A stretch of 64,000 nucleotides of DNA, taken from the NCBI RefSeq assembly GCF_031458235.1, contig NZ_JAVDYB010000001.1:8581001-8645000 (forward strand), written 5' to 3'. The notes beneath the pieces are model-generated. The model saw only the letters and a program-made list of their open reading frames with translations. It searched no databases and was not told the origin of the DNA. Source of the stretch: Catenuloplanes atrovinosus. Lineage in GTDB: Bacteria > Actinomycetota > Actinomycetes > Mycobacteriales > Micromonosporaceae. Positions 2,022-48,887 of this stretch are shown here, one piece after another. A program made the position numbers and the translations under genes. How positions within the stretch are numbered: the first letter of the stretch is position 1; each line of letters begins with the position of its first letter.

Positions 2022-2609
2022 ATGACCGTCGACGTACCGAACAGCGGCAGCCGTGCGCGTACCCGCCGGGCGATCCTGGACGCCGCGATCGCGGCGCTCG
2101 GCCGGAACCCGGCCGCCTCGCTCGCCGAGATCGCCACCGCCGCCGGCGTCGGCCGCACCACGCTGCACCGCTACTTCGCGGACCGCTCCGACCTGCTCGC
2201 GGCCGTGAACACCGAGGGCATCGCGCGGATCGACCGCGCCGTGCGGCTGGCCCGCCTCCCCGAGGGCACCGGCGGCGACGCGATCGCGCGGCTGGCCCGG
2301 GAGTACTTCGACCTCGGCGACCTGCTCTCCCTGCTGTTCGCGGACCCGCAACTGGTCGGCGACCCGACCTGGGAGGGTGGCGCCGACGCCTGCGACCCCC
2401 GGCTGGAGGAGGTCGTCACGCGCGGCCACCGCGACGGCACCATCGACCCGGAGCTGCCCCCCGGCTGGGTGCAGAGTCTCATCTGGTCCCAGCTCTACGC
2501 CGGCTGGGGCTACACCGCCGCCGGCGCCTCCCGCCACGACGCCCTGCGCCTCGTCCTGCGCACCCTGACCGGTGCGCTGGCCCCACGCCCGGACCGCGAG
2601 GTCCGGTGA
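2022..2609 (+). CDS. TetR/AcrR-family transcriptional repressor
   Basis: This 195-residue protein has an N-terminal TetR helix-turn-helix of about 45 residues (RRAILDAAIAALG ... GVGRTTLHRYFADRSDLL) and a divergent C-terminal ligand domain. ATG 2022 is chosen because a TATCCT box (2008-2013) ends 8 nt before it, the arrangement of a leaderless mRNA, and because the open frame upstream runs into the divergent exporter gene. An AAGGAG at 2002-2007 is rather far to act as ribosome binding site. It most likely represses the adjacent ABC exporter and itself through the 1977-1992 repeat. The inducer is unknown. Confidence 0.9.
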   Translation: MTVDVPNSGSRARTRRAILDAAIAALGRNPAASLAEIATAAGVGRTTLHRYFADRSDLLAAVNTEGIARIDRAVRLARLPEGTGGDAIARLAREYFDLGDLLSLLFADPQLVGDPTWEGGADACDPRLEEVVTRGHRDGTIDPELPPGWVQSLIWSQLYAGWGYTAAGASRHDALRLVLRTLTGALAPRPDREVR

Positions 2610-2651
2610 CGGCCGTGCGGAAAATGCCGCGAGCGGATTCGTGGGCCCGGC

Positions 2652-2657
2652 TACCCT
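2652..2657 (+). promoter_or_regulatory. -10 box (TACCCT) of a leaderless leader transcript
   Basis: TACCCT ends 7 nt before the ATG at 2665, so transcription should start at or next to that ATG. No clear -35 hexamer is seen, which is common in actinobacteria. This would be the promoter of the leader ORF and the following ABC-F gene. Confidence 0.5.
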
Positions 2658-2664
2658 GAGCCGC

Positions 2665-2688
2665 ATGCCATACGTGCTCTACCTGTGA
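2665..2688 (+). CDS. Seven-codon leader peptide MPYVLYL upstream of ABC-F gene
   Basis: This tiny ORF reads ATG to TGA and encodes MPYVLYL. Its ATG falls 7 nt after a TACCCT box, so it would be the first codon of a leaderless mRNA. It lies 110 bp before the ABC-F start and is followed by two GC hairpins. Known antibiotic-inducible ABC-F and erm genes carry short leader ORFs on which the drug stalls the ribosome; the msrD leader MYLIFM is similarly short and hydrophobic. I infer that it is a sensing peptide. Expression and drug response are not shown by sequence. Confidence 0.5.
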   Translation: MPYVLYL

Positions 2689-2691
2689 GAC

Positions 2692-2718
2692 GGCCGACGG
2701 CCTGAGGCGCGGTGCGCC
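2692..2718 (+). promoter_or_regulatory. Tandem hairpins after leader ORF (possible attenuator)
   Basis: Two small stems directly follow the leader stop codon: GGCC/GGCC (2692-2702, 3-nt loop) and GGCGC/GCGCC (2706-2718, 3-nt loop). No T-run follows, so termination here is not obvious. They could be alternative structures that a stalled leader ribosome disrupts. Confidence 0.3.
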
Positions 2719-2798
2719 CGGTCGATCGTCGTCCACATAAGCCTCGTCGAGCGTCGCCCGCGGGTCGTGCGGGTGCGGCGCTCCGTGCTGGGAGAGCA

Positions 2799-4385
<1,587 letters not shown>

Positions 4386-48470: not shown

Positions 48471-48887
48471 ATGACACGGGCGCGCATGCCACGCCCGCAA
48501 GAGGTCGCCGCAGCTCGCAAGGATCCGCGACTGCTGCGTGCCCTCGCCGAGCGACGCCTGGACGAGGCGTGGCGGACCAGGGGGGTCTGCCAGAGCGTCG
48601 ATCCGGAGACGTTCTTCCCGGCTCCTAACGAGCCGGCCGACGCCGCCATCGCCATGTGCGGCTCCTGCGAGGTGCAGGGCGCCTGCCTGGCCTGGGCGCT
48701 GGAGGTGGGTGACTGCCATGGGGTCTGGGGCGGCACCACGCCGCGCGAGCGCCGGGCCATGCTTCGCGTCTGGCAGGAGCAGGCCACCGGCGCCGGCGGG
48801 CAGGGTGATCAGGTCGCCGCGGAGATCGTGCTGGACGGGCCCCCGGTGCGGGACAGGTTGCTGAGGCTGGTGCCGGCCGGGCGGTGA
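48471..48887 (+). CDS. WhiB-like iron-sulfur transcription factor
   Basis: This 138-residue protein has four conserved Cys (C40, C63, C66, C72; pattern C-x22-C-x2-C-x5-C) that bind a 4Fe-4S cluster, followed by the GVWGGTTPRERR turn motif that contacts sigma factor or DNA. Wbl proteins control differentiation, redox response or antibiotic resistance in actinobacteria. It lacks an AT-hook, so it is not WhiB7/WblC. The subclass is unresolved. ATG 48471 has GGGGGAGGTGGG upstream. A long C-terminal tail of about 35 residues follows the motif. Confidence 0.92.
   Translation: MTRARMPRPQEVAAARKDPRLLRALAERRLDEAWRTRGVCQSVDPETFFPAPNEPADAAIAMCGSCEVQGACLAWALEVGDCHGVWGGTTPRERRAMLRVWQEQATGAGGQGDQVAAEIVLDGPPVRDRLLRLVPAGR

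Follow-up and report, generated by a model that had tools for sequence, protein, structure and literature searches.

The genome of Catenuloplanes atrovinosus carries a seven-codon open reading frame lying between a promoter-like sequence and the gene of an ABC-F ATPase, which raises the question of whether this small ORF, translated without a 5' leader, is an antibiotic sensor that controls the ABC-F gene. The window, i.e., the whole stretch of 64,000 nucleotides that was analysed, comes from a genome represented by a single contig of 8.9 Mb; the elements of the locus described next are located on its forward strand.

Organization of the locus

Direct reading of the sequence showed the -10 box TACCCT (2652-2657), the 7-nt spacer GAGCCGC (2658-2664) and the candidate leaderless leader ORF ATGCCATACGTGCTCTACCTGTGA (2665-2688), which starts with ATG at 2665, encodes MPYVLYL and ends with TGA at 2686-2688. 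It is followed by the ABC-F gene (2799-4385), encoding a protein of 528 aa of the predicted ribosome-protection type, whose start codon ATG (2799-2801) is preceded by GGGAGAG. This order of elements is the one given in the initial annotation. Directly 5', and in the same orientation, lies the gene of a TetR-family regulator (2022-2609), whose stop codon is 42 nt away from the -10 box.

The pattern TANNNT, 6 or 7 nt, [A/G]TG, 5 to 20 codons and a stop occurs three times on the forward strand of the whole window and not once on the reverse strand, and the MPYVLYL ORF is the only one of the three that ends with an aromatic and an aliphatic residue. No known RNA family was found at 2500-3000, two weak matches lying far under their cut-offs. 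A pattern search of the own genome with one synonymous spelling of MPYVLYL gave zero matches and was uninformative.

The ABC-F gene

The best NCBIfam match of the encoded protein is NF000171, TlrC/CarA/OleB/SrmB (349.7 bits, below the cut-off of 800). The protein reaches 288.6 bits for NF000355, ribo_prot_ABC_F (below the cut-off of 380), on which six relatives score 266 to 319 bits, and 178.7 of 680 bits for the Msr model. Two ABC_tran stretches and no transmembrane family were found with Pfam. The initial annotation had taken the gene for a resistance-type ABC-F; the best match agrees with this assignment, but since the protein falls under the cut-offs of the matched resistance families, resistance is not established. 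Among the actinobacteria-specific ABCF groups AAF1-6, AAF1-5 are reported as predicted resistance factors (PMC6723617).

Conservation within the genus

Conservation of the peptide in related species had been set beforehand as a test of the proposed leader. An ABC-F orthologue, 75-100% identical, was found in all five genomes of the genus examined, and in each of them MPYVLYL is encoded with a TANNNT box 7 nt upstream; the only difference among the five leader ORFs is a single synonymous base in one genome. Identity across all five genomes extends to 29 of the first 30 leader positions, compared with 4 of 94 aligned positions of the window upstream of the -10 box. Farther upstream, the sequence appears by eye to be dissimilar in some of them, so the leader seems to travel together with the ABC-F gene.

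Leaders in other actinobacteria

The ABC-F protein was searched in overlapping sets of 5, 150, 298 and 394 whole genomes. In total, 79 distinct relatives were considered, namely the best locus per genus member and, elsewhere, every genome match with E no higher than 1e-100 (150 genomes), 1e-120 (298 genomes) or 1e-110 (394 genomes), with genome G122 counted once. The leader scan covered 380 nt upstream for TANNNT, 6-7 nt, ATG or GTG, and 5-20 codons. The pattern was found in 69 of 78 upstream regions, one locus (L084) being handled apart; in 50 rounds of dinucleotide shuffling, a mean of 0.72 and a maximum of 3 of the 78 regions contained it, and on the opposite strand it was found in none of the 78. 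Three further loci, L084 as well as L066 and L070 with their more upstream gene starts, bring the number of relatives with TANNNT placed 6-7 nt ahead of the leader ATG or GTG to 72 of 79; in four more (L071, L074, L075 and L081), the leader belongs to this family but its -10 box departs from the consensus. Accordingly, a small ORF of the leader family is present in 76 of the 79 relatives, distributed over several actinobacterial genera. The three misses are L064; L072, in which the leader frame is disturbed; and L186, the most diverged locus. In L064, inspection by eye showed an in-frame ATG (locus position 1465, forward strand) that is preceded at 6 nt by TATCGT and could start the ABC-F itself, so the L064 gene may be leaderless. 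One in-frame TAG interrupts the ABC-F frame of L057, where leader and -10 box are intact.

Among ABC-F-like paralogues of the same five genomes, none of 25 has the leader pattern by the same criteria, with the scan running from 420 nt before the open frame and the frame of L024 opening beyond the fetched stretch. Scanning from the match start, which for some paralogues lies inside the gene, gave unlike GTG/TTG hits at two loci, with spacings of 5 and 8. In a further contig scan of loci L085-L097 without L088, mostly of other ABC-F subfamilies, the arrangement was found only in L085, from a Nesterenkonia MAG (MNFCMPSRRLRPVL); L089 has an unlike 5-codon hit at a spacing of 5.

A single ORF of seven codons would by itself be weak evidence, and it could have arisen by chance beside a promoter. 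Given the conservation in the genus (5/5) and in the family, the excess over shuffled sequences (69/78 vs. 0.72), the window scan and the paralogue control (0/25), a chance ORF is extremely improbable and was rejected.

Two classes of leader peptides

Classification was carried out for 73 leaders (L066, L070 and L084 were left out). Type 1, defined by a [FYLV][LIV] end without RLR or RRR, comprises 44 leaders of 6-10 residues, 23 of them distinct, including MPYVLYL of the window. Their second-to-last residue is F or Y in 44/44, a count partly conditioned by the definition, although L and V were also permitted at this position and did not occur; the last residue is L, I or V. The aromatic penultimate residue bears out the likeness to the MsrDL peptide MYLIFM proposed in the initial annotation. 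Type 2 comprises 29 leaders of 12-20 residues, all distinct, of which 23 are R-terminal; the +x+ motif of macrolide arrest is present in 14 and absent from 15. TASMRLR is contained in L183 (MLTASMRLRFRA) and L184, and SMRLR in others; L183 has two overlapping starts that fit, of which the one with a 7-nt spacing, giving the peptide with TASMRLR, was adopted. The stop codon is UGA in 39 of 44 type 1 and in 29 of 29 type 2 leaders.

In the ABC-F tree (77 rows, without L057), a single group with support 100/99 contains every type 2 row, and the type 1 rows make up a second group plus the two outlying rows L082 and L083. The type 2 group also holds three loci then scored as having no leader, two of which proved to have +x+ leaders. 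Leader class thus tracks the ABC-F tree. The outlying relatives L082 and L083 have the 10-residue leader MGFGYGVFYL, and in L082 the predicted duplex of the leader with the ribosome-binding site (RBS) is very stable (-24.8 kcal/mol).

The abundance of L, F and Y in the peptides would suit a leader that senses a shortage of charged tRNA (Leu, Phe, Tyr) with no drug involved, and mycobacterial leaderless attenuators are reported to sense cysteine (PMC9031893, PMC13236596). This reading is nevertheless improbable: the invariant part of type 1 is an aromatic residue before the final aliphatic one and the stop rather than runs of codons, the sister clade bears +x+ drug-arrest motifs, and the downstream gene encodes an ABC-F.

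Another reading assigns the leader to drugs of the peptidyl transferase centre (lincosamide, pleuromutilin, streptogramin A) acting at the first codons, with the sequence serving mainly for RNA pairing. The Streptomyces coelicolor leaders tiaAL and are5scL1 are reported to be stalled at start codons by such drugs (PMC12421871), and the leader nucleotides are nearly frozen inside the genus. Against it, like peptides in other genera are spelled with different synonymous codons, chiefly in third positions, and the class-specific C-termini point to sensing by the nascent chain; we regard this alternative as unlikely. In three groups of like peptides, differences at first, second and third codon positions number 4/0/9, 6/0/9 and 0/6/20; since likeness of the peptides was the basis for choosing the groups, the counts demonstrate spelling differences and are no unbiased test of selection. 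In the genus of the window and in the group of MMQQLLFL there is one difference each, too few to tell. The resemblance of the leaders to drug-arrest peptides is a likeness of sequence and no proof of drug sensing.

Start codons and promoters

The start codon is ATG or GTG in each of the 73 classified leaders; TTG, permitted in the family scan, is used by none. Leaderless translation is reported to be common in mycobacteria and, in M. smegmatis, to need ATG or GTG, TTG and CTG being ineffective (PMC4633059). A Shine-Dalgarno (SD) signal is absent ahead of the leaders, with a mean energy of -3.13 kcal/mol vs. -3.73 for the control and -6.73 for the ABC-F genes. The promoter spacing and the exclusive use of ATG and GTG fit a start codon placed at the 5' end of the RNA, and the leader RNA of the window would begin at the A of ATG 2665. 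The leaderless geometry suggested in the initial annotation was recovered in 72 of the 79 relatives.

Promoters of the WblC regulon of S. coelicolor are described as GAAAWY, 3 nt, the -35 position (TKGMNN), 16-19 nt and TANNNT, with transcription starting 7-8 nt past the -10 box (PMC7157823). In the window, the WblC/WhiB7-type box GAAAAT (2620-2625), which fits GAAAWY, lies 3 nt before the -35 position (2629-2634), followed by a 17-nt spacer to TACCCT, in agreement with the WblC layout; the -35 hexamer itself, GCGAGC, is weak and does not match TKGMNN. The box was first spotted by eye and counted afterwards: with at most one mismatch, it occupied the expected position at 26 of 44 type 1 loci (0-2 of 44 in ten control windows) and at 12 of 29 type 2 loci (0-1 in ten control windows).

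Six WhiB proteins are encoded in the genome. One of them (L192, G000:C1:8564676-8564825), located about 16 kb before the window, has a C-terminal RGRPRK AT-hook; the AT-hook is a hallmark of WhiB7, and L192 is likely WhiB7/WblC. A second WhiB-family gene is located in the window (48471-48887); no AT-hook was seen in its product by eye, and GAAAAC is placed 35 nt before its start codon.

RNA folding and pairing with the ABC-F start site

The MFE of the RNA at 2665-2810 is -69.0 kcal/mol, mildly better than for shuffled sequences (z -1.52, 14 of 200 as good). In the predicted fold, the first seven bases, including the leader start codon, are single-stranded. Helix A joins leader codons 3-7 (2672-2684) to the stretch 2790-2802, which contains the SD sequence GGGAGAG and the ABC-F start codon; helix B (2685-2736) pairs the end of the leader and GACGGC after the stop with GUCGUC; and helix C is a hairpin (2740-2789). 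The initial annotation spoke of two hairpins: a structured region is indeed predicted, but with three helices.

Across the five genomes of the genus, 96.7% of helix A cells are paired, and the 3' partner in helix B is GUCGUC in the window and GCCGUC in the other four. Covariation was not found inside the genus, 0 of the 53 pairs of the whole structure and none of helix A having changed on both sides. By inspection, L032 (MPYVFYL) builds helix A from different bases, with two compensated pairs relative to the window. When leaders and RBS were permuted, own duplexes of type 1 were better than permuted ones (5 of 5000 permutations as good, 14 non-redundant loci), and for type 2 (8 loci) 205 of 5000 permutations were as good. 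The pair found in the window does not stand out in this test, as its leader pairs better with 6 of the 13 RBS of other loci and its RBS with 5 of their 13 leaders.

Masking of the RNA by a stalled ribosome raised the mean SD accessibility of type 1 from 0.17 to 0.36, with 18 of 44 loci gaining more than 0.2 and 2 losing, a gain that is in part trivial because masking removes pairing partners. For type 2, a mask at the last codon left SD accessibility unchanged (1 up and 2 down of 29), and a mask ending before the last sense codon, evaluated over a longer RBS stretch, raised it in 22 of 29 and lowered it in none, a result that is only suggestive, as this mask was chosen after the first had failed.

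Type 2 leaders share the segments GACGGCG, CGCCGTC, GCCGGGCGG and GCCCGGCTC, found with at most one mismatch in 29, 29, 29 and 28 of 29; 22 of 29 have them in the order given. By the same criterion, 23 and 25 of the 44 type 1 leaders contain the first two, and 4 and 2 contain the last two. The segments are located around and after the leader stop (e.g., in L042, L038 and L183). By inspection, they could form two alternative pairings that end with the ABC-F start site, as in classical attenuators.

Neither an intrinsic terminator nor a U-tract site was found within 2600-2850, which favours translation attenuation as the putative mode of control at the window. The same leaderless sensor could instead act on transcription, with arrest blocking a terminator or a Rho-dependent end and helix A being secondary. 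MsrDL and other ABC-F attenuators are reported to work on transcription, and in L042 a strong hairpin followed by TTTTT was noted by eye; at the window, in turn, the lack of a terminator-like site and the better than permuted pairing of type 1 leaders with the RBS speak against this alternative, which is possible but doubtful.

Proposed mechanism

Conservation of the peptide, promoter geometry and RNA pairing potential were computed; from these we infer the 5' end, translation, stalling, the identity of the drug, and induction. Taken together, they suggest that the locus is quite probably a drug-inducible attenuator, in which a sensor peptide translated without a 5' leader controls the ABC-F gene. 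A ribosome would bind the 5'-terminal ATG at 2665 without an SD sequence and synthesize MPYVLYL. With no drug, it would terminate and depart, and leader codons 3-7 would pair with the ABC-F SD sequence and start codon, keeping the gene off. In the case of drug-dependent arrest, the stalled ribosome would sit over the leader, the ABC-F start site would be freed and the ribosome-protection protein would be made. The WblC/WhiB7-type promoter would add a general input of translation stress, resulting in two-layer control.

For the family, it appears fairly likely that leaderless antibiotic-arrest peptides are widespread in actinobacteria, with the 5' terminus of the message serving simultaneously as promoter-proximal start codon, as nascent-chain drug sensor and as antisense lock on the ABC-F start site. 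The switch would be the first 70S ribosome to load on this leaderless RNA. The peptides would follow one of two grammars, termination arrest as in MsrDL or +x+ elongation arrest as in MefAL, according to the ABC-F clade.

Comparison with known systems and significance

MsrDL, the leader MYLIFM of streptococcal msrD, is reported to be arrested by erythromycin at its stop codon, with the second-to-last F5 clashing with release factors, and a change of its stop from UAA to UGA lowers induction (PMC10314930). Similar to MsrDL, type 1 includes hydrophobic leaders of 6-8 residues with an aromatic-aliphatic-stop end before an ABC-F gene, and the termination-arrest geometry of a penultimate aromatic residue is common to the whole class; MHLYFL, MRLFFL and MHYYFL share the length and register of MYLIFM, and MPYVLYL is one residue longer. 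The predominance of UGA stops in type 1 and the lack of a +x+ motif in half of the type 2 leaders are points against the proposed mechanism. MsrDL is also preceded by a ribosome-binding site, and its target is a Rho-independent terminator (PMC10314930), whereas the leader of the window has another sequence, no SD, predicted pairing with the RBS and no Msr-family gene downstream. MefAL/MefEL is MTASMRLR, and ErmDL begins with MTHSMRLR (PMC10314930, PMC4335068). MRLR is likewise present in several type 2 leaders, with TASMRLR in the two named above, but type 2 leaders are predicted to be leaderless, are longer (12-20 residues) and precede actinobacterial ABC-F genes.

Leaderless attenuator ORFs of cysteine genes are reported in mycobacteria (Canestrari 2020, cited in PMC9031893 and PMC13236596). 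The leaders described here would resemble these in being short ORFs, predicted to be leaderless, with a predicted action in cis on the downstream gene; the mycobacterial ORFs sense tRNA through poly-cysteine, whereas the present leaders resemble those of the drug type and MPYVLYL contains no Cys. The tiaA and are5sc genes of S. coelicolor (PMC12421871) also encode actinobacterial ABC-F proteins and show control by uORF attenuation and a WblC link, two features predicted for the present gene; as reported there, their uORFs differ in having ribosome-binding sites, in the peptides MVGDDDISG and MLV, and in belonging to the ARE5 subfamily. The candidate promoter resembles WblC/WhiB7 promoters in its box, spacing, TANNNT and presumed start distance and differs in the poor -35 hexamer.

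Every element of the proposed system has precedent. The initial annotation had called the arrangement new; because leaderless cysteine attenuators are already published, the arrangement as such is not, and what appears to be new is its combination, in many actinobacterial genera, with peptides of the drug-arrest type. Among the matches listed, no leaderless leader was named as drug-sensing in titles or abstract openings, the subscription literature being mostly outside this coverage. The tool uORF4u is described as looking for SD sites before upstream ORFs, and such SD-based tools may overlook leaderless leaders. For the actinobacterial ABC-F Ard1, uORF4u is reported to have found no uORF, which its authors blame on too few close homologues.

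If the proposed mechanism is true, a nascent chain together with a drug can arrest ribosomes that have initiated on leaderless RNA. The 23 type 1 and 30 type 2 peptides would then be a natural collection for learning the rules of arrest, and drug classes would become predictable for a large set of uncharacterised ABC-F genes.
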